Of a stretch of 64,000 bases of DNA, positions 26,487 to 43,038 are shown piece by piece. Position numbers and translations under genes: made by a program. The notes under the pieces are model-generated. The model worked only from the letters and a program-made list of their open reading frames with translations. It was not told the origin of the DNA and did no database searches. The DNA lies in the NCBI RefSeq assembly GCF_029255125.1, contig NZ_JAPUVR010000085.1, positions 62,001 through 126,000 on the forward strand, written 5' to 3'. Every line of letters begins with the position of its first letter. Within the stretch, counting starts at the first letter, position 1. Source of the stretch: Accumulibacter sp. (GTDB taxonomy: Bacteria > Pseudomonadota > Gammaproteobacteria > Burkholderiales > Rhodocyclaceae).

Positions 26487-27659
26487 TCAGGCTTTGCTGA
26501 GCAAGCGCATTCCCCGCTCCAGTCCGTCCAGCGTCAGCGGGAACATTCGCCCGCCGAGCAGATTGTGGATCAACGAGGTCGATTGCCGGTACTGCCAGGA
26601 ATGCTCAGGCTCCGGGTTGAGCCAGATCGCGTGTGGCCAGGCGTCGGTCAGCCGACGTAACCACAAGGCGCCCGGTTCTGCGTTGTTGAACTCCAGGCTG
26701 CCATTCGGCTGGACGAGCTCGTACGGGCTCATCGCTGCGTCGCCGACCAGAATCAGCTTGTAGTCGTTGCCGTAGGTGTGCATCACCTCGACCGTCGACG
26801 TACGTTCGCTGTGCCGCCGGCGATTGTCGCGCCACAGATAATCATAGACGCAGTTATGGAAGTAGTAGTGCTCGAGGTGCTTGAACTCACTGCGACAGGC
26901 GGAGAAGAGTTCCTCACAGACGCGCACGTAATCGTCCATGGAGCCACCGATATCGAGCAGGAGCAAGACCTTGACTGCATTATGCCGTTCCGGCCGCAAT
27001 CTGAGGTCGAGCCAGCCCGCGTTGCGCGCAGTTCCAGCGATGGTCGCTTCCAGGTCGAGTTCTTCCGCCGCACCTTCGCGCGCAAAGCGCCGCAAGCGGC
27101 GCAAGGCAAGCTTGATGTTGCGCGTACCGAGTTCGACGCTGTCGTCAAGGTTGCGATACTCGCGCTTCTCCCAGACCTTCACCGCCGAGCGATTTTCGCT
27201 CCGTCCGCCAAGACGAATTCCTTCCGGATGGGTTCCACCGTGCCCGAAGGGCGACGTACCGCCGGTACCGATCCACTTGCTGCCACCGGCATGGCGCCCG
27301 CGCTGCTCGGCCAAGCGTTGGCGGAAGGTCTCCATCAGCTTGTCCCAACCCAGTTTCTCGAGCTTGGCCCTTTCGGCGTCGGTCAGATGCTTCTTCGCCG
27401 CCTGGCGCAGCCAGTCCTCCGGAATCAGGGCATCCATCCCGGGGAGTGCTTCGACACCTTTGAAGTACTCACCAAACGCGCGATCGAATTTGTCGAAGTT
27501 GGTTTCGTCCTTGACCAACAGCGCCCGCGCCAGGATGTAAAAATCGTCGATGCTCGGACCGATGACGTGTTCCTGCAGCGCGCGCAGCAGGGCCAGGAAC
27601 TCGTTGATCGACACCGGCAGGCGACTGCTCTTGAGATGCAGGAAAAAGTCGATCAGCAT
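26487..27659 (-). CDS. VWA domain-containing CoxE-like protein
   Basis: A 390-residue cytosolic protein with a C-terminal von Willebrand factor A domain; the MIDAS metal site starts DIGGSMDDYVRV. The N-terminal half is the helical CoxE-type region. In characterised systems a VWA protein of this kind works with a MoxR ATPase to insert metal or remodel a protein complex. Its MoxR partner is encoded 88 bases upstream. The client protein is unknown. Confidence 0.85.
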   Translation of the reverse strand: MLIDFFLHLKSSRLPVSINEFLALLRALQEHVIGPSIDDFYILARALLVKDETNFDKFDRAFGEYFKGVEALPGMDALIPEDWLRQAAKKHLTDAERAKLEKLGWDKLMETFRQRLAEQRGRHAGGSKWIGTGGTSPFGHGGTHPEGIRLGGRSENRSAVKVWEKREYRNLDDSVELGTRNIKLALRRLRRFAREGAAEELDLEATIAGTARNAGWLDLRLRPERHNAVKVLLLLDIGGSMDDYVRVCEELFSACRSEFKHLEHYYFHNCVYDYLWRDNRRRHSERTSTVEVMHTYGNDYKLILVGDAAMSPYELVQPNGSLEFNNAEPGALWLRRLTDAWPHAIWLNPEPEHSWQYRQSTSLIHNLLGGRMFPLTLDGLERGMRLLSKA

Positions 27660-27747
27660 TGCCGGCTCCAGCCGCGTGCCATCCCCGGAAACCGCCTGCC
27701 AGGTCCTCGTCTGTGCACTGCCGCTGGCCTGCGCACGCCCGCCCGGT

Positions 27748-28590
27748 TCAGCGGTTATGTCGCGCCATGAAAATCAGGCGCTCAAACAGATGGACGTCCT
27801 GTTCGTTCTTCAGCAGCGCACCGTGCAGGGGCGGAATCGCCGCCTTCTGATCCTTGCTGCGCAAGACCTCGGGCGGAATGTCTTCGGCCAGCAACAGTTT
27901 GAGCCAGTCGAGAAGCTCGGAAGTTGACGGCTTCTTCTTCAGACCGGGAATCTCACGCAGTTCGAAAAACACTTCGAGTGCCTCACGCAGCAGCGCCGGC
28001 TTCAGGCCGGGAAAATGCACCTCGACGATGCGTGCCATCGTTTCCCTGTCCGGAAACTTGATGTAGTGGAAGAAGCAGCGGCGCAGGAAGGCGTCCGGCA
28101 GTTCCTTTTCGTTGTTCGAGGTGATGAAAACGACCGGCCGGTGGCGCGCACGCACGTTCTGACGTGTCTCGTAAACGAAGAACTCCATGCGATCGAGTTC
28201 GCGCAGCAGATCGTTGGGGAATTCGATGTCGGCCTTGTCGATTTCGTCGATCAGCACGACTGCCGGCGTTTCGCACTCGAAGGCCTGCCACAGCACACCT
28301 TTGAGGATATAACTGGCGATGTCGGCCACCTTCGCGTCGCCAAGCTGCGAGTCACGCAGGCGCGAAACCGCGTCATATTCGTACAGTCCCTGTTGCGCCT
28401 TGGTCGTCGACTTGATATGCCACTGAAAAAGCGGCAGGCCGAGAGCGGCAGCGACTTCCTCGGCGAGCATCGTCTTGCCGGTTCCCGGTTCACCTTTGAT
28501 CAACAGCGGTCGCTGCAAGGTGATTGCCGCGTTGACCGCGAGCGTCAGATCGCGCGTCGTCACGTAAGTTTCTGTTCCACTGAAACGCAT
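27748..28590 (-). CDS. MoxR-family AAA+ ATPase
   Basis: The 280-residue protein has Walker A GEPGTGKT (residues 33-40), Walker B VVLIDEIDKAD, sensor 1 VFITSNNEKELPDAFLRRCF (residues about 158-177) and a C-terminal lid. It belongs to the MoxR branch of AAA+ chaperones. Position directly ahead of the VWA gene supports joint work as a chaperone pair. It is transcribed divergently from the PstS-like gene across a 260-base spacer. No clear promoter hexamers were seen in that spacer. Confidence 0.9.
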   Translation of the reverse strand: MRFSGTETYVTTRDLTLAVNAAITLQRPLLIKGEPGTGKTMLAEEVAAALGLPLFQWHIKSTTKAQQGLYEYDAVSRLRDSQLGDAKVADIASYILKGVLWQAFECETPAVVLIDEIDKADIEFPNDLLRELDRMEFFVYETRQNVRARHRPVVFITSNNEKELPDAFLRRCFFHYIKFPDRETMARIVEVHFPGLKPALLREALEVFFELREIPGLKKKPSTSELLDWLKLLLAEDIPPEVLRSKDQKAAIPPLHGALLKNEQDVHLFERLIFMARHNR

Positions 28591-35642: not shown

Positions 35643-36224
35643 ATGACACTGCGCACTGTGTTGTTGTTTTGCCTCAGCCTGCTGCTTTCCAGCTGCAGCG
35701 ACGCACCCGCCTTCAAGTCCACCGATATCACCGGTGTCGACTGGGGGAAGGACTTTGCGCTCACCGACCATCTCGGTCAGGCACGCCGGCTCAGTGATTT
35801 CAAAGGCAAGGTCGTCGTTCTCTTTTTTGGCTATACACAGTGTCCTGATGTTTGCCCGACAACGCTGAGCGCCTTGCGCGAGGTACTACTGCAACTCGGC
35901 AAGGAGGCCGACCAGGTGCAGGTCGTCTTCGCCACGCTTGATCCGGCACGTGATACGCCGGCACTGCTCGCCGAATACGTCAGCGCCTTCCATCCGGGTT
36001 TCATCGGCCTGTACGGTAACGACACGACAACCGCAGCCACCGCCAGGGACTTCAAGGTGTTCTACGCCAAACATCCGGGCACGCTACCGGGCAGCTACAG
36101 CATCGACCACTCGACCGGCAGTTACGCCTTCGACCGGCAGGGCCGCTTGCGCCTGCTGATCCGCCACGGTGAAACGATCGACAACGTCGTTGCCGACCTC
36201 AAACTGCTGCTTGCCGGCAAGTAA
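35643..36224 (+). CDS. SCO1/SenC copper chaperone lipoprotein
   Basis: A 193-residue periplasmic thioredoxin-fold protein that delivers copper to the CuA site of heme-copper oxidases. The N-terminus is a lipoprotein signal with lipobox LSSC (Cys18). Copper ligands are C67 and C71 in CPDVCP and the distal histidine in SYSIDHSTGS. It opens a plus-strand run with the DUF1318 and PCuAC genes, all probably for copper loading of the reductase encoded at 38.7-41.1 kb. Confidence 0.94.
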   Translation: MTLRTVLLFCLSLLLSSCSDAPAFKSTDITGVDWGKDFALTDHLGQARRLSDFKGKVVVLFFGYTQCPDVCPTTLSALREVLLQLGKEADQVQVVFATLDPARDTPALLAEYVSAFHPGFIGLYGNDTTTAATARDFKVFYAKHPGTLPGSYSIDHSTGSYAFDRQGRLRLLIRHGETIDNVVADLKLLLAGK

Positions 36225-36247: not shown

Positions 36248-36688
36248 ATGCAAATTCGCCCTCTACACTTGCTCCTGCTCGCCTTGCTCTCCTTGTTTTC
36301 GTGGCCGGCGCGGGCTGCGCCGGGAAGCGAAGCGATCAATCTCGACATCGGCACACCGCCGGTGATCGTCGTCAAGCACAGCCTCGCACAGCGCACGTCC
36401 AGGCTCGTCCGCTTCTACGACGCCGGCGTGATCGGCCTTGGCCACGATGGAATGATCAAACTGCGCGATGCCAGTCGCCTCAATCTGGCGCAACGGCAAA
36501 TCGCTGAAAAGCTGATCGACAACGAAAACCCCGATCGCAACTCGCTGATCTATGCGCTCGCCGAAGCGCACGGCGGGCAGTCCACCGAGCCGGCAGCGCG
36601 CCAAGCGCAAATCCGCCGCTGGCACGAGCAGTTCCGCTCGGGCTGGTGGGTTGAGGACGCGCAGGGCAACTGGTCGCGCAAGCCGTAA
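36248..36688 (+). CDS. DUF1318 (YdbL-family) exported protein
   Basis: A 146-residue protein with a signal peptide (LLLLALLSLFSWPARA, cleavage near residue 23) and a DUF1318-type body: SLAQRTSRLVRFYDAGVIGL, NLAQRQIAEKLIDNENPDRNSL (both segments near residues 45-100). YdbL-like proteins are periplasmic and of unknown function. It lies 23 bases after SCO1 and 90 bases before PCuAC, so it may take part in envelope or metal handling, but no direct evidence shows this. Confidence 0.72.
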   Translation: MQIRPLHLLLLALLSLFSWPARAAPGSEAINLDIGTPPVIVVKHSLAQRTSRLVRFYDAGVIGLGHDGMIKLRDASRLNLAQRQIAEKLIDNENPDRNSLIYALAEAHGGQSTEPAARQAQIRRWHEQFRSGWWVEDAQGNWSRKP

Positions 36689-36778
36689 GCGCGCCGCCAA
36701 ACTGCGACGGCGTGTCGCACGAGCGTAGTAGAGTTTGCGTCTATCATGCGCATTTCGTCGAACATGAAGGAGCAGGGC

Positions 36779-37249
36779 TTGAAAACAAGATCAATCCGAC
36801 TGGCCACAGCCATCCTGGTCGGCCTCGCGGCCAGCGCAGCCCAAGCGGCGAGCGTGGAAGTCAAGGACGCCTGGGTTCGCGGAACTGTGCCTGGTCAGCA
36901 GGCGACCGGAGCGTTCATGCGCATTACCAGCCAGACCGATACGGCGATTGTCGGTGCCAGCAGCCCGGTGGCGGCAGTGACCGAAATTCATGAAATGAGG
37001 ATGGATGGCGGCGTCATGAAAATGCGCGCCCTCACGCGGTTGCCGCTGGCTGCCGGAAAAACGCTTGAACTCGGGCCAAGTGGCTATCATGTAATGCTCA
37101 TCAAGCTCCGCCAGCCCCTGCGCAAAGGCGACTCGATTCCCCTCACGCTGCATCTCGAACGCCCGGGAAACACCACGGAAAGCCTTGAAATCAAGGCCGA
37201 AGTGCGCGACTTGGCGGCGGGCACGGCGGGCGAACACAAGTCTCACTAA
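36779..37249 (+). CDS. PCuAC-type periplasmic copper chaperone
   Basis: A 156-residue exported copper chaperone. The start is the TTG at 36779: AAGGAG lies six bases upstream, and this gives a neat signal peptide ending AAQA-ASVEV; ATGs at 36746 and 36764 would put extra residues in front. The copper site is the PCuAC pattern H71-x10-M82-x21-H104-x-M106. In other bacteria this protein passes Cu(I) to SCO and CuA. It converges on ctaA. Confidence 0.93.
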   Translation: MKTRSIRLATAILVGLAASAAQAASVEVKDAWVRGTVPGQQATGAFMRITSQTDTAIVGASSPVAAVTEIHEMRMDGGVMKMRALTRLPLAAGKTLELGPSGYHVMLIKLRQPLRKGDSIPLTLHLERPGNTTESLEIKAEVRDLAAGTAGEHKSH

Positions 37250-37331: not shown

Positions 37332-38381
37332 TCAGGCGGCGTACCCGGCTGCTCGGTCGACCCGGAGTTCGTGATTGACCCAGAGCAAGAGTCCGAAGAC
37401 CACCATCGCCCAACCCTGATGCGCAGCGCCGAGCGCCACCGGAACACTGAGCAACAGGGTCGCGATACCGAGCCCGATCTGCACAGCAACAGCGAGCAAG
37501 AGAAGCGCCGCGGCCACGCCCGCCGCCCGGGAAACCGAAGCTGACCTGAGCTTCCAGCAAAACCACGGGACGAGGAACGCCAGCAGCCATGCGCCCAGCC
37601 GGTGATTGAACTGGACCAGCGCCATGTTGTTGAAGAAGTTGAGGTACCACGGGTCGAGCAGGAAACTCTCCGGAGGCATGAAGTGCCCCTGCATCAGGGG
37701 GAAGGTGTTATACGCCTTGCCGGCGCGGATTCCGGCCACGAAGCCCCCGGTAACGACCATGAAGGCAACCAGGATCGTCAGCCAGAAGCCGAAACGCTGC
37801 AATCCCCGCAGCGTTGCGCTGGGCGCCTGGTCAGCCCGCCGGGCAAAGAGGCCGAGCGCCAGCCAGAACATCGCGAAGAAAAGCAGGAACGCCAACGACA
37901 GGTGCGCGGTCAGGCGGTAGTGGCTGACTCGCGGGTCGTCTACGAGGCCGCTTTGCACCATGTACCAGCCCATCGCTCCCTGCAGCCCGCCGAGAACGAA
38001 AATCCCGGCCAGCTTCGGAACCAACCCGGGTTCGATCCTGCGACGCAACCAAAAGAAGAGAAACGGAAGCAGGAAGACAAGGCCGATCAAGCGGCCGAGG
38101 ACGCGGTGCCAGTACTCCCAGTAGAAGATTCCCTTGAATTCCTCCAAGGTCATCTGGTGATTCACTTTCTCGAACTCCGGCGTTCTCCTGTACTTGTCGA
38201 ACGTCTCCTCCCACTGCGCCTGATCGAGCGGCGGTATCACTCCGACGATTGGCTGCCACTCGACGATCGACAGACCGGAATGGGTCAACCGGGTGACGCC
38301 GCCGACGACCAGAATGGCCAGGATCATGGCGCTGCAGACCATCAACCAGATGGCAATCGGGCGCCTCGCTGCTCTATCCAT
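37332..38381 (-). CDS. ctaA: Heme A synthase (COX15/CtaA)
   Basis: Oxidises heme O to heme A in the inner membrane. The 349-residue protein has eight hydrophobic helices and the four family histidines in TRLTHSGLSIVEW, EYWHRVLGRL, FNHRLGAW and AAHQGWA. The start at ATG 38381 (MDRAARRPIAIW) is chosen because the first helix follows at once; a GTG four codons upstream is possible. It is divergent from the reductase operon, sharing its 312-base spacer, and its substrate is made by the farnesyltransferase at 41.2 kb. Confidence 0.93.
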   Translation of the reverse strand: MDRAARRPIAIWLMVCSAMILAILVVGGVTRLTHSGLSIVEWQPIVGVIPPLDQAQWEETFDKYRRTPEFEKVNHQMTLEEFKGIFYWEYWHRVLGRLIGLVFLLPFLFFWLRRRIEPGLVPKLAGIFVLGGLQGAMGWYMVQSGLVDDPRVSHYRLTAHLSLAFLLFFAMFWLALGLFARRADQAPSATLRGLQRFGFWLTILVAFMVVTGGFVAGIRAGKAYNTFPLMQGHFMPPESFLLDPWYLNFFNNMALVQFNHRLGAWLLAFLVPWFCWKLRSASVSRAAGVAAALLLLAVAVQIGLGIATLLLSVPVALGAAHQGWAMVVFGLLLWVNHELRVDRAAGYAA

Positions 38382-38693
38382 TGTCAATGTCACGCTCAAA
38401 GGGGGAGGTGGGGAAACGTTACGAGACGCGATTATATGCCTTCCGGCTGATCCGCCGCACGCTCCCCAGCCTGCGGCAAGCGGTCGCGGGGAGCAGCCGG
38501 AAAGGCTGCTGGCGCCTGGGTTTGCGTGCGCTGACACTCTTCCCCGATTCTTGACCTGAATCAAATCAATCGGCTCCCGGCAGCGGGTATCCTTCGGTCG
38601 ATTGTGCCCGCAGTGGCCAATAAATTCGACTTGATCGACCGGCAAATTCATCAGGCGCGTGCAGCGCGCTACTCAGCGACGGAGGACCTACCC
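38382..38693. other. 312-base divergent promoter region of ctaA and the reductase operon
   Basis: Contains the FNR/DNR-type palindrome at 38551-38564 and a possible -10 (TATCCT, 38588-38593). The first half is GC-rich and without visible features. No gene or RNA is recognised. Confidence 0.6.
38551..38564. promoter_or_regulatory. FNR/DNR-type operator before the reductase operon
   Basis: TTGACCTGAATCAA matches the TTGAT-N4-ATCAA consensus at nine of ten informative positions. A possible -10, TATCCT at 38588-38593, would put the transcription start near 38600 and the operator centre at about -42, the class II activator position. CRP/FNR-family regulators with this site respond to O2 limitation (FNR/ANR) or to NO (DNR/NNR). 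The assignment is by eye. Confidence 0.6.
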
Positions 38694-38843
38694 ATGGCAG
38701 ACCACAACGATGACGACATACCGTTCATGCAGAGACTTCTGGACAACCATTTCCTGCTGCTCTTCCTTGGCGTGGCGTCACCGGGGCTGCTCTACATCCT
38801 GTGGGGCATCATCGACATCATGAACACCCCTCTCGCCAGGTAA
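38694..38843 (+). CDS. 49-residue single-span membrane protein
   Basis: Short gene with a strong ribosome site (GGAGG) at 38681-38685. The protein MADHNDDDIPFMQRLLDNHF... has one hydrophobic helix (FLLLFLGVASPGLLYILWGI, residues 20-39) and an acidic N-terminus. It ends 30 bases before subunit II. Its size and place recall the small subunit IIa of B-type (ba3) oxidases, but I recognise no specific family, so a structural or assembly role in the reductase is inferred from position. Confidence 0.65.
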   Translation: MADHNDDDIPFMQRLLDNHFLLLFLGVASPGLLYILWGIIDIMNTPLAR

Positions 38844-38873: not shown

Positions 38874-39413
38874 ATGAGTGCAATTCTGCCGCCGTCCGAA
38901 CGGCTCTGGTGGAAACAACCGATCGACAAGGTCGAATGGGCGTGGATCGCGATCGCCTTCGTCTGGGGCATGGTGATGTTCGTGATGATGATTTACTGGC
39001 ACATCTACGGCAAACAGAACCTGTCCAACGAGGCGTACAAGACGACCCCCGAGATGTTCGCCGCGAAAGCCGAGAAATTCATCGCTGAAAACACGATACG
39101 CACCGAGACCGAGCAGCAGATCCCGGTCGTCAAGGTGCCGGCGAACGGCGAAGGCTATCTGATCGCCCGCCTCTGGGCATGGTATCCGATTCTCGAACTG
39201 GAAAAGGGCAAGACCTACAAAATCCATCTGTCATCGATGGATTACAACCATGGTTTCTCGTTGCAGCCGGTCAACATCAACATCCAGGTCATCCCCGGTT
39301 ATGAACATGTCGTCAAGATGACGCCGACCAAGGAAGGTACGTACGCCATCGTCTGCAACGAATACTGCGGCATTGGCCACCATTCGATGCTTGGCCGTAT
39401 CTACGTCAAATAA
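38874..39413 (+). CDS. Heme-copper reductase subunit II (CuA-containing, B-family)
   Basis: A 179-residue protein with one N-terminal membrane anchor (WAWIAIAFVWGMVMFVMMIYW, near residues 23-42) and a periplasmic cupredoxin domain. All CuA ligands are in place: His in DYNHGFS, and the CNEYCGIGHHSM segment with Cys, Glu, Cys, His, Met at canonical spacing. The single anchor and short length fit B-type (ba3/NorS-like) subunits. It accepts electrons from cytochrome c and passes them to subunit I, whose gene begins 17 bases downstream. Confidence 0.9.
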   Translation: MSAILPPSERLWWKQPIDKVEWAWIAIAFVWGMVMFVMMIYWHIYGKQNLSNEAYKTTPEMFAAKAEKFIAENTIRTETEQQIPVVKVPANGEGYLIARLWAWYPILELEKGKTYKIHLSSMDYNHGFSLQPVNINIQVIPGYEHVVKMTPTKEGTYAIVCNEYCGIGHHSMLGRIYVK

Positions 39414-39429: not shown

Positions 39430-41124
39430 ATGGCAACCACCTACCGTACGTGTCCCGTCTCCGGACTTCAGTTCGAGGACCAGGCCGAGAAGCTGATGCG
39501 CTGGAACGCCGTCGCTGGCGTCCTCTGGCTGCTGGTCGGCGGGATTACTGCCCTGCTCGTGATTCTCACGCGCTGGCCAGCGATCAAGCTGCTGCCGGCG
39601 GATCAGTTCTATCTGATTCTGACTGCGCATGGGATCGATATGTTGATCCTGTGGATTCTTTTCTTCGAGATGGCCGTCCTCTACTTTGCCTCGTCGACAC
39701 TGCTCAGGTGCCGCCTGGCAGCGCCCAAGGTGGCCTGGCTCGCCTTCTGGTTGATGGCGATTGGTGGCATCGTGACCAACATCGCAGTCTTCCAGGGTGA
39801 ATCAAGTGTCATGTTCACCTCCTACGTCCCGATGCAGGCAGCGTGGCACTTCTACCTGGGGATCATTCTCGTCGCCGTCGGAGCGCTGCTCGGCGTCGCC
39901 GTCTTCTTCGGCACGCTGGTCGTCGCCAAGCGCGAAAAGACCTACCAGGGCTCGCTGCCGCTGGTCACCTTCGGCGCCTTGACCGCAGCGATCATTGCCA
40001 CCTTCACCATCCTCGCCGGCGCCGGCATCCTGCTGCCCACGCTGCTCTGGTCGCTCGGCATCCTGAAGGAAATCGACGCCCAGTTGTACCGTATGGTCTG
40101 GTGGGGCCTGGGCCACTCGTCGCAGCAGATCAACGTCTCCGCGCACGTCGCCGTCTGGTACCTGATCGCTGCCGTCGTCTTTGGCGCCAAGCCGCTTTCG
40201 GAGAAGGTGTCGCGTTTCGCCTTCCTGCTCTACATCCTCTTCCTGCAGCTCGCCAGCGCGCACCATCTGCTCTCCGACCCGGGCATGAGCGCCGAATGGA
40301 AGGTGCTCAACACATCGTACTTCATGTATTTTGCCGTCATGGCGTCGATGATCCACGGCTTCACCGTACCCGGTGCGATCGAGGCAGCGCAGCGCCGCAA
40401 GGGCTACACAAACGGTCTGTTCGAATGGCTGCGCAAGGCGCCGTGGGGCAATCCGGTGTTTTCGGGCATGTTCATCTCGCTCGTAAGCTTCGGCTTCCTG
40501 GGTGGGATTTCCGGTGTCGTCCTCGGCACCGAGCAGATCAACATGCTGATGCATAACACCTTCTACGTTCCCGGCCACTTCCACACGACGGTCGTCACCG
40601 GTACGACGCTGGCGTTCATGGCGGTCACCTATCTTCTCGTTCCGGTGCTCTTCCGGCGCGAAATGATCCTGCCCAAACTTTGCCAGATCCAGCCCTACCT
40701 GTTCGGCATCAGCATGTCGGTGCTCGGCCTGGTGATGATGGGTGCCGGAACGCTCGGCGTCTCCCGCCGGCATTGGGACATGGCTTTCTCGGGTGCTCCG
40801 TTCCAGTACGAATGGCCGGGCGCGGCTTATCTGATGATGGGTCTGACCGGCATCTTCGGCGTCATAGCCGTGATCGGCGGTGGCTTGTGGATCCTGCTCG
40901 TCGTCGGTTCGCTGCTCTTCGGCAAGAAGCTCGACGGCGGCAAGGTGTCCGATCGCCCGACGCCTATTCCAGTGAATACGCAGGCAGCCTCGGCCGCCGC
41001 GCACGGGAGCGAGCATGTCGCGGTTCCCGGCACCGTCGTCCTCGCGCTGCTGTTGTTCGTTTCCTTCGTCCTGTATTATTTCGTGAACTGGAAGTACCTC
41101 TCGGAAGTCTGGCTGCTTAGCTGA
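39430..41124 (+). CDS. Heme-copper subunit I lacking the active-site tyrosine (ba3-like or sNOR-type NO reductase)
   Basis: A 564-residue protein with about 13 hydrophobic helices, aligning with the B-type (Thermus ba3) catalytic subunit. The heme and metal histidines are kept: H67 (LTAHGIDM), H229 (GLGHSS), H278/H279 (ASAHHLL), H383 and H385 (VPGHFHTT). The segment that reads GHPxVY in oxidases is GHSSQQ here, so residue 233, the cross-linked tyrosine, is glutamine. No tyrosine occupies the C-family alternative place six residues before the HH pair (leucine; nearest Y is four residues further). In cNOR the same H+4 position holds a glutamate iron ligand. This favours NO reduction over O2 reduction. 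SCO, farnesyltransferase and a CuA subunit are neighbours. Confidence 0.85.
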   Translation: MATTYRTCPVSGLQFEDQAEKLMRWNAVAGVLWLLVGGITALLVILTRWPAIKLLPADQFYLILTAHGIDMLILWILFFEMAVLYFASSTLLRCRLAAPKVAWLAFWLMAIGGIVTNIAVFQGESSVMFTSYVPMQAAWHFYLGIILVAVGALLGVAVFFGTLVVAKREKTYQGSLPLVTFGALTAAIIATFTILAGAGILLPTLLWSLGILKEIDAQLYRMVWWGLGHSSQQINVSAHVAVWYLIAAVVFGAKPLSEKVSRFAFLLYILFLQLASAHHLLSDPGMSAEWKVLNTSYFMYFAVMASMIHGFTVPGAIEAAQRRKGYTNGLFEWLRKAPWGNPVFSGMFISLVSFGFLGGISGVVLGTEQINMLMHNTFYVPGHFHTTVVTGTTLAFMAVTYLLVPVLFRREMILPKLCQIQPYLFGISMSVLGLVMMGAGTLGVSRRHWDMAFSGAPFQYEWPGAAYLMMGLTGIFGVIAVIGGGLWILLVVGSLLFGKKLDGGKVSDRPTPIPVNTQAASAAAHGSEHVAVPGTVVLALLLFVSFVLYYFVNWKYLSEVWLLS

Positions 41125-41156: not shown

Positions 41157-41199
41157 CCTGTCGCCATCCGGGCGCACGCCGACCGGATGGCGACAGGTC
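41155..41199. other. Perfect 17-bp inverted repeat between subunit I and the farnesyltransferase gene
   Basis: The arms 41155-41171 and 41183-41199 are exact complements around an 11-base loop. No thymine run follows. Such a structure could act as an RNA processing or stability element that sets different expression of the two genes. It covers the ATG at 41187, which makes that codon an unlikely start. Confidence 0.8.
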
Positions 41200-41249
41200 G
41201 GAAAACAGGCATCAATCCTGCTCACTTGATCGCTTTGCCCGTACAGCCC

Positions 41250-42146
41250 ATGCCCTCCATCCCCACGTCGACCGGCACATCCGGCTTCCCCCTACGTGCA
41301 ATCCTCGGCGTTTTCAAACTGCGCATCGGCGTCGTCATCACGCTGACCGCGCTTACCGGTCTGGCGGTCAGCCCCGGCCCCGGACTGGGCCCGCTGCAGT
41401 TGCTTGTCCTGACCCTTTCGGTCCTCGTTTCCTCAGCCAGCGCAGGCGCTTTCAACCAGTACTACGAATACGCCAGCGACCGCCTGATGTCGCGCACCAG
41501 CAAACGCCCGTTTGCCACCGGCGAGATTCAGCACGGCCCAGTCTGGTTGCTGATCATCGTCGCCTTGCTGATCCTGTCGGTCGCCGCCGCGTGGCTGGCG
41601 CTGAACGCTTGGTCGGCACTCTTCGTGTTTCTCGGCGCTTTTTTTTATGCCGTTGTGTACACCGTTTGGTTGAAGCGACGCACGTGGATGAACATCGTCC
41701 TTGGCGGGCTTGCTGGAAGTTGGGCCGTACTTGCCGGAGCCAGCGCCAGCGACCCACAGCTCGGCGCTGTCCCGCTGTCTTTGGCGCTCGTCCTCTTTCT
41801 CTGGACCCCACCGCATTTCTGGAGCTTGGCCATCGCCTTCCGTGCCGACTATGCGAACGCCGGTGTGCCGATGCTGCCCGTCGTCGTTGGCGACGAGAAA
41901 GCGGCCCAGGCCATCTTCCTCGGCACCTTGTGTCTGGTTGCCGCGTCGATGCTGCCCCTCGCCTTCGGCCTGGGCGTGATCTATCTGATCGGTGCCGCGC
42001 TCGGCGGCCTGGTCTTCATTCAGAAAGCCTGGCAACTGACGCGCAGGCCTGACCGGCAGAGCGCGATGAGCTGTTTCCATGCGTCCTTGCTGCAACTGAC
42101 GCTTGTGCTGCTCGCCGCCATCGCCGACGCGCAACTTGCCTTCTAG
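41250..42146 (+). CDS. ctaB: Protoheme IX farnesyltransferase (heme O synthase)
   Basis: Adds a farnesyl group to heme B to make heme O. The protein has about nine hydrophobic helices and the prenyltransferase motif NQYYEYASDRLMSRTSKRP, in which the first aspartate of the NxxxDxxxD motif is glutamate. The start is taken as ATG 41250 (MPSIPTSTGTSG, 298 residues) because an earlier in-frame ATG at 41187 lies inside a stable hairpin; no ribosome site is clear at either. With CtaA it supplies heme O/A for the reductase. cyoE is a synonym. Confidence 0.92.
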   Translation: MPSIPTSTGTSGFPLRAILGVFKLRIGVVITLTALTGLAVSPGPGLGPLQLLVLTLSVLVSSASAGAFNQYYEYASDRLMSRTSKRPFATGEIQHGPVWLLIIVALLILSVAAAWLALNAWSALFVFLGAFFYAVVYTVWLKRRTWMNIVLGGLAGSWAVLAGASASDPQLGAVPLSLALVLFLWTPPHFWSLAIAFRADYANAGVPMLPVVVGDEKAAQAIFLGTLCLVAASMLPLAFGLGVIYLIGAALGGLVFIQKAWQLTRRPDRQSAMSCFHASLLQLTLVLLAAIADAQLAF

Positions 42147-42165: not shown

Positions 42166-43038
42166 ATGTTCCCCAGCTACGCCCGGGCGCTCGCTGTCTC
42201 ACTCGCCGTCCTGAGCGCGATGCCCGCAGCAGCGGGCGAGGCCCCCCCGGAAAAGGTGAAGCTGACCGCACGCCCGCAAGGCGCCACCGGCGGCTTGGCC
42301 CTGACCACGCTCGACGAGAAAGCGGCTTTCGCCCTCTCGCAAGCGGCGATTGGTCAGTCGGTTGGCAACTTTACGCTGCTTGATCGGCAGGAACGGCCAG
42401 TCGCACTGACGCGCTACCGGGGCAAACCCTTGTTGGTCAACTTCATCTATACGGCGTGTTTTCAGGTCTGCCCGACGACCACACGCAACCTGCAGAAAGC
42501 AATCCAGAACACGGTCAGCGTCGTTGGCGCCGACCGCTTCAACGTGATCAGCATCGGTTTCAACCAACCGTTCGACTCGCCTGGCGCGTTACGTGATTTC
42601 GCCCGGCAATACGGCATCCATCTGCCGAACTGGGAGTTTCTCAGTCCATCATCGGCCATTGTCGGCGACCTGACGCGTAATTTCGGCTTCAGCTTCGTTG
42701 CCACTGCGGCTGGTTTCGACCACCTCAATCAGGTCACCATGGTCGACGCGCAGGGAACGATCGTACGCCAGGTCTATGGCGAGAAGTTCGGCGCCGAAGA
42801 CCTGATCGAACCGCTCAAGCGCCTGATCGCCGGGGCACCGCTTCCGCAGGAGAGCAACGCCCTGGACGAAATCATTGAACGCGTCCGGATCATTTGCTCG
42901 ATCTACGATCCGGTCACCGGTCGCTATCGGACCAACTACGCGCTGTATCTTCAGGCGGCCGGCTTCGTTTCCTTTGTCATCTTTCTGCTCTACCTGTCTG
43001 TCCACTTCTGGAAGAACCGGCGGCGCAGCGAGCCGTGA
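42166..43038 (+). CDS. SCO/SenC-family protein with C-terminal membrane anchor
   Basis: The second SCO protein of the cluster, 290 residues from ATG 42166. It has a signal peptide (ALAVSLAVLSAMPAAAG) and the copper motif YTACFQVCPTTT (CxxxC), a histidine in GFDHLNQV, and a C-terminal transmembrane helix (FVSFVIFLLYLSVHFW) absent from the SCO1 at 35.6 kb. It closes the operon, matching the position of senC in the norSY-senC arrangement reported from nitrifiers. Likely role: copper loading or redox maintenance of the CuA site of its own reductase. Confidence 0.88.
   Translation: MFPSYARALAVSLAVLSAMPAAAGEAPPEKVKLTARPQGATGGLALTTLDEKAAFALSQAAIGQSVGNFTLLDRQERPVALTRYRGKPLLVNFIYTACFQVCPTTTRNLQKAIQNTVSVVGADRFNVISIGFNQPFDSPGALRDFARQYGIHLPNWEFLSPSSAIVGDLTRNFGFSFVATAAGFDHLNQVTMVDAQGTIVRQVYGEKFGAEDLIEPLKRLIAGAPLPQESNALDEIIERVRIICSIYDPVTGRYRTNYALYLQAAGFVSFVIFLLYLSVHFWKNRRRSEP

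Follow-up and report, generated by a model that had tools for sequence, protein, structure and literature searches.

A predicted eNOR-like nitric oxide reductase in Accumulibacter

A heme-copper subunit I of Accumulibacter carries a glutamine at the position of the cross-linked tyrosine of ba3 oxygen reductases, and the locus that encodes it probably specifies a CuA-fed NO reductase of the eNOR type, which would convert NO to N2O, rather than an oxygen-consuming oxidase (we put the probability at about 0.84, from sequence comparison). The enzyme is an addition to a published family and its novelty is modest; the interesting part is the consequence for denitrification and N2O in Accumulibacter, a key phosphorus-removing organism of treatment plants. 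Should it prove to be an eNOR, all 28 Accumulibacter genomes searched would possess the NO step and each would be a potential source of N2O, and the existing 'ba3' transcript data would need rereading. It may also explain how Accumulibacter copes with its own NO, many genomes having seemed to be without an NO reductase, and the claim is testable with existing enrichments.

Gene cluster and active site

The window (the whole stretch of DNA analysed, 64 kb) contains the following features around the gene for subunit I.

35643..36224, + strand: second SCO1/SenC-family protein (PF02630, 1.3e-41)
36248..36688, + strand: DUF1318 protein between the copper chaperones (PF07027, 2.9e-13)
36746..37249, + strand: PCu(A)C periplasmic copper chaperone (PF04314, 2.2e-36)
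37332..38381 (ATG frame extends to 38651), - strand: ctaA, heme A synthase, divergent from the operon (COX15-CtaA, 6.8e-109)
38551..38564, + strand: predicted FNR/DNR-type box TTGACCTGAATCAA, 143 bp upstream of the small ORF
38694..38843, + strand: small 49-aa single-helix ORF (by hydropathy), a probable third subunit, preceding subunit II
38874..39413, + strand: subunit II, a cupredoxin domain behind a single N-terminal helix, with the CuA ligands H126, C161, E163, C165, H169 and M172 (by ligand conservation and hydropathy)
39430..41124, + strand: catalytic subunit I, predicted eNOR-like heme-copper NO reductase (ATG start, 564 aa; Q232-Q233 replace V-Y, six ligand His kept)
41187..42146, + strand: ctaB, heme O synthase (TIGR01473, 8.3e-78, above cut-off)
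42166..43038 (longer frame from 42103), + strand: SCO/SenC-type copper chaperone (PF02630, 6.6e-13; ATG start)

A sequence-only reading of this DNA had placed subunit I with senC, a heme A pathway and two copper chaperones, in agreement with the CuA subunit II, ctaA, ctaB, two SCO/SenC proteins and PCu(A)C protein found here; the single-helix ORF at 38694-38843 and the FNR-type box at 38551-38564 are additional to it. The small ORF matched no Pfam family. Of the 83 loci given, 44 are well flanked, with 8 kb or more to either side; the small single-helix ORF, subunit II, subunit I and SCO are present in all 44 of these and ctaB in 38. The CuA ligands of subunit II are conserved over 81 matched loci, with H126 in all 81, C161, C165, H169 and M172 in 80 each and E163 in 79.

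Subunit I matched Pfam COX1 in a profile search (8.6e-65) and no NCBIfam model above its cut-off. The closest solved structures by sequence are the ba3 oxidases of Aquifex (7deg, 1.6e-46) and Thermus (1ehk, 1.7e-43). Alignment with Thermus thermophilus ba3 pairs H67, H229, H278, H279, H383 and H385 with H72, H233, H282, H283, H384 and H386, respectively, which bears out the earlier claim of a heme-copper subunit I with all metal-ligand histidines kept. Q233, which that reading had already assigned to the cross-linked tyrosine position, aligns with Y237 of T. thermophilus ba3, and the residue before it is also Gln (Q232). Residue 272, six ahead of the HH pair and presumably at the C-family tyrosine position, is Leu, so that the tyrosine reported missing there is indeed absent.

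Q232 and Q233 are both found in 88 of 88 aligned relatives at a minimum of 45% identity, Thermus and Thermomicrobium among them (ORFs shorter than 400 aa, such as L010 with its internal stop, were left out). They are also invariant in all 45 rows of a second alignment (the query and others 69-95% identical to it), a different collection whose species may overlap with those of the first. The 30 more distant rows of the first alignment comprise 23 with Tyr (22 B-family enzymes and the aa3 subunit of the same genome), six with Phe and one wrong-frame row; Tyr thus occupies this site in 22 of 22 B-family rows outside the Gln group. One non-His residue at 383 and one at 385 among the relatives are due to a frame-shifted copy (L035) that was kept in the alignment.

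Relatives extend to Alphaproteobacteria (a Defluviimonas plasmid, 63% identity), a T. thermophilus plasmid (46%) and Thermomicrobium roseum (45%). Among the best 80 loci listed in a scan of genome contigs with the query, those 92-96% identical to it are titled Accumulibacter, save two titled only Pseudomonadota bacterium, and none is titled Rhodothermus. In two T. thermophilus plasmid relatives (L066 and L227) the second histidine of the HxH heme pair (H385 in the query) is Lys, which suggests an unusual axial ligand.

The K-path, a proton channel in ba3, was mapped through the alignment. Y248, S309 and T315 of ba3 are kept in the query as Y244, S306 and T312, and S261 is mostly kept (S257); among 23 Gln enzymes, Y244 and S306 are invariant, S257 is found in 20 and position 312 is T or S in all 23. 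Two other residues of the path, Y244 and T312 in ba3 numbering, are replaced by V/I and His in the Gln enzymes. Helix VIII has two conserved tyrosines, Y297 (23/23) and Y300 (21/23), one on either side of the position that aligns with ba3 T302.

These features are compatible with a mechanism in which electrons would pass from a periplasmic cytochrome c or cupredoxin through CuA and the low-spin heme before reaching an A-type heme/CuB site. Here, Gln would stand in place of the radical-forming Tyr and two NO molecules would be joined (2 NO + 2 e- + 2 H+ -> N2O + H2O), with protons arriving through a modified K-type path (Y244, S257, S306, H309 and T312). In Accumulibacter, the enzyme would remove the NO made by NirS. 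On a megaplasmid of T. roseum, a CtaA-CtaB fusion is encoded directly downstream of the Gln enzyme (L067:9832-11631); its position beside the Thermomicrobium enzyme points to an A-type heme.

The NO step in Accumulibacter and related genomes

The enzyme gene was matched in 28 of 28 Accumulibacter genomes searched (23 of 23 among the good ones), the copy being partial or split in three of the 28 (G901, G907 and G917). A canonical qNOR or cNOR match was obtained in only ten: qNOR in seven (81-100% identity to the qNOR of the window's own genome, used as query) and a NorB-type protein in four, with one genome having both. HLWVEG and an HH pair occur in all four NorB-type matches. NirS-strength cd1 matches (E < 1e-130) were obtained in 27 of the 28 genomes, G018 being the exception. 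The Gln enzyme occurs together with a NirS-strength match, and with no qNOR/cNOR match, in seventeen Accumulibacter genomes (14 of which are at least 90% complete), and it is the only heme-copper NO reductase found by this search in 18 of the 28 species genomes. The exception, G018, is a closed single-contig genome with the Gln enzyme and no NirS-strength, qNOR or cNOR match.

The window's own genome also encodes a qNOR (a separate gene, L004), an aa3-type subunit I and a probable cbb3-type subunit I. BLASTP of the query against this qNOR gave nothing significant (best E of 2.4). Since the query is the only ba3-like member of the five COX1-family genes in this genome, it is the published Accumulibacter 'ba3' by elimination, rather than by a comparison of locus tags. 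In the passages concerned, PMC6446978 (2019) assigns a ba3-type oxidase to all Accumulibacter clades and treats it as an oxygen-consuming oxidase, finds norZ confined to a few genomes and norBC absent, treats the missing NOR as an open question and describes as long debated whether Accumulibacter carries nitrate to N2. In its corresponding section, PMC12766714 gives norB in 44 MAGs and norC as 'almost entirely missing'. We found no paper pairing the words Accumulibacter and eNOR in a literature search whose scope was papers without their supplements; genome surveys with eNOR models, as excerpted from PMC12569097, may already have counted Accumulibacter genomes.

Elsewhere in the window, adjacent AAA/MoxR-like (27748-28590) and VWA-like (26487-27659) ORFs, judged by eye, occupy 26487-28590 on the - strand. 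Such AAA/MoxR and VWA pairs are sometimes labelled norQ/norD and may mislead NOR inventories.

Within the class, the Gln enzyme is carried by 34 of 369 genomes. Genes of the cd1 family (cut-off E of 1e-60, loose enough to include shorter NirF/NirN-like relatives) occur in 31 of the 34 carriers and in 43 of 335 non-carriers (Fisher p of 2e-21), and a stricter NirS list gives 22/34 and 19/335; because the compared genomes are related, the p-values overstate independence and are indicative only. A leaning towards cd1 genes is seen as well in genomes that have a more distant Tyr-type relative but lack the Gln enzyme (4/12 versus 39/323, p of 0.054), the Tyr having been read in most, not all, of these 12. 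The enzyme and a NirS-strength match are no more than 20 kb apart in 11 of 34 carriers (∼2.2 kb in G417 and G306), and 38 kb apart in the window's own genome. NirK (TIGR02376, 1e-60) was matched in none of the 33 carriers other than the own genome, and three of the 34 (G260, G269 and G377) lack both cd1-family and NirK matches. At 1e-15, 21 of 33 carriers gave no match to qNOR or cNOR; the 12 with a match include a weak one in G460 (4e-17) not confirmed as NorB, and among the other NorB-type matches of the 33 carriers the sequence inspected was that of G163 (HLWVEG present).

The physiological role is a separate matter from the chemistry. The enzyme could be an eNOR serving micro-oxic NO detoxification with little energy conservation, a qNOR/cNOR or neighbours doing the respiring; this reading is compatible with an eNOR, and we regard it as a serious possibility somewhat short of even odds. 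The qNOR in the window's own genome would fit it, as would Ca. Nitricoxidireducens bremensis, which carries an 81% identical enzyme (L165) and whose NO reduction is ascribed to NorBC in the relevant part of PMC10390337. Against it stand the 14 Accumulibacter genomes mentioned above, in which NirS-strength matches occur at high completeness with no qNOR/cNOR match, and the prediction, in a passage of PMC8756737, that eNOR retains one proton channel.

Placement among oxygen and NO reductases

In a tree of 41 proteins, from which qNOR, aa3, a wrong-strand frame and the CuB-less paralogues were omitted, a 100/100 branch separates the 23 Gln enzymes from 18 Tyr-bearing B-family enzymes, the latter including two solved structures as partial sequences. 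The sequence-only reading had named a firm placing within oxygen-reducing ba3 oxidases as an outcome that would overturn it. With the aa3 subunit of the same genome added, grouping the query alone with the Tyr enzymes lowered lnL by 47 and was rejected (p-AU of 0.0019); with this long aa3 branch as its only outgroup, the tree is compatible with an origin of the Gln branch either within the Tyr-bearing B-family or next to it. A wider tree with very long qNOR and aa3 branches, the CuB-less paralogues and one wrong-strand frame (L002) did not place the Gln group on one side of a branch, the CuB-less paralogues and the wrong-strand frame falling beside it.

The query thus unites Gln for Tyr, six His, an adjoining cupredoxin subunit II and membership of a group apart from the B-family oxygen reductases. 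Table A4 of PMC8756737, in the part that bears on this site, gives Gln in eNOR, Asn in sNOR and CuANOR, Asp in gNOR and Glu in cNOR/qNOR, and a related passage uses Gln as the eNOR hallmark; with Gln as the hallmark of eNOR and Asn in sNOR, subunit I is an eNOR by the published criterion and not an sNOR. According to the same excerpts, the published eNOR alignment already contained a Rhodocyclaceae and a Thermus sequence. The eNOR family is listed among biochemically characterised families in the pertinent lines of PMC11388526, which cite Murali et al. 2024. Nothing that we found excludes the query from the family, with which it shares Gln at the Tyr position, the six His and a CuA/cupredoxin subunit II encoded upstream, and its locus adjoins ctaA, ctaB, two SCO genes and PCuAC. 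The family is that of Hemp and Gennis in 2008 and of Murali and coworkers in 2024, the latter of whom are reported to have shown NO reduction, in PNAS, for the Rhodothermus marinus eNOR.

An oxygen reductase, namely a ba3-type oxidase that either dispenses with the cross-linked Tyr or recruits one from helix VIII (Y297 or Y300), is improbable. The conservation of both tyrosines and the adjoining heme A pathway would suit such an enzyme, as would its treatment as a ba3 oxidase in the Accumulibacter literature and its transcription in UW-LDO-IC, where the 'ba3' transcripts cluster with oxygen-rising genes and change little (both from passages of PMC6446978). It is opposed by the Tyr of all 22 B-family rows outside the Gln group and of 18 of 18 Tyr-type references, where the query has Q233, and by the separate Gln branch; neither the tree nor the AU test places the query among Tyr-bearing B-family enzymes. 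The ba3 oxidases of T. thermophilus and Aquifex are the nearest solved structures, yet ba3 Y237, Y244 and T312 are absent from the query, which lies on the opposite side of the 100/100 branch. Furthermore, cd1-family genes accompany 31 of 34 Gln carriers versus 4 of 12 genomes with only a Tyr-type relative, and the own genome already has aa3-type and probable cbb3-type subunits I. Counted against an eNOR are Y297/Y300, the replacement of Y244 and T312 of the ba3 K-path, the UW-LDO-IC transcripts, the NorBC of N. bremensis, the qNOR of the own genome, the three carriers without cd1/NirK and G018.

The remaining alternative, an sNOR (NorSY) as proposed by the sequence-only reading, is very improbable: the B-family subunit, CuA subunit and SCO/SenC partner of the Nitrosomonas enzyme are shared and betaproteobacterial sNOR exists (PMC4940428, in the lines concerned), but sNOR has Asn at the site (PMC8756737, Table A4, as excerpted) and the order norSY-senC-orf1 (PMC4940428, same lines), whereas the query has Gln, and its gene is separated by ctaB from that of SCO, with no orf1 after it in the window. 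The tree being without any Asn-type (sNOR) reference, this class was rejected on the diagnostic residue and gene order only. Searches able to retrieve a true sNOR, among them those of class genomes and plasmids, met only Gln-, Tyr- or Phe-type enzymes among the sequences inspected, to which most plasmid matches did not belong. What stands of the earlier proposal is a CuA-fed NO reductase, predicted from the residue, the tree, the neighbourhood and genome co-occurrence; the sNOR class does not.

Two further kinds of NO reductase differ from the query at the same site. The bNOR/qCuANOR of Bacillus azotoformans is likewise a B-family NO reductase with a CuA subunit and an adjoining gene for a 46-aa membrane peptide (PMC3475470, in the pertinent section), but Asn is found at the site in the Bacillus CuA enzymes (same section) and the type is so far known only in Bacillota according to the corresponding lines of PMC11388526. 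cNOR and qNOR catalyse the reaction that is predicted for the query, with Glu at the active site (PMC8756737, Table A4, as excerpted) versus Gln in the query.

Upstream box and unexpected cluster partners

TTGACCTGAATCAA is the sole TTGAY-N4-ATCAA in the 64-kb window (0.16 expected; 14 of 100 shuffles contain at least one). A box of the same kind lies 131-168 bp upstream of the small ORF in 14 of 14 Accumulibacter-group loci with sequence there (12 titled Accumulibacter and two titled Pseudomonadota bacterium at 95% identity). Outside this group, the wider pattern TTGAY-N4-RTCAA was found within 350 bp in 14 of 65 loci, and in 34 of 3569 background stretches of 350 bp; such an FNR-type box is no general feature of the family. 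FNR and DNR/NNR sites are indistinguishable from sequence. No promoter came out of a σ70 scan, where 1.1 would be expected, and terminators were near chance (6 found, 4.9 expected). The passages of PMC6446978 on regulation also predict an FNR motif at the 'ba3' operon and describe UW-1 'ba3' transcripts that are high anaerobically and fall on aeration.

A COX1-family paralogue of ∼460 aa is encoded in 34 of the 44 well-flanked clusters. All 53 aligned paralogues retain the first CuB His and the HxH heme pair (in this alignment the low-spin His is shifted by one column) and have lost the HH pair, with Tyr at its second position and never His at its first; Phe occupies the Tyr/Gln site. The paralogue of the own genome matched no NCBIfam family and lies on the same contig beyond the window.

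L228:9748-11109, - strand: own-genome COX1-family paralogue, divergent from a Crp/FNR-type regulator gene

Cytochrome b / 4Fe-4S / MvhD-type proteins are encoded in 41 of the 44 well-flanked clusters. A fused cytochrome b / 4Fe-4S / FlpD-MvhD-like protein (L231:9503-10897 and relatives) often occurs in two copies near the enzyme and may be a quinol-side electron module. In the own genome, no cytochrome b/FeS gene was found near the paralogue within the stretches examined. That the CuB-less paralogue might be an electron-transfer or assembly partner is a guess. A joint reading, which we hold as tentative and on the whole unlikely in its entirety, would make 'ba3' the genus-wide NO reductase of Accumulibacter, energy-conserving and active at low oxygen, so that denitrification maps of this organism stopping at NO would be wrong; in most relatives the enzyme would work with the CuB-less paralogue and the cytochrome b/4Fe-4S/MvhD-type proteins as a larger quinol-linked complex.

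In the Thermus relatives, the enzyme has within ∼2 kb an ScdA_N/RIC-like gene, an Rrf2 regulator and a Cu nitrite-reductase-like gene; the last, as read in L066, matches TIGR02376 at 2.9e-45, which is below the cut-off of that model.
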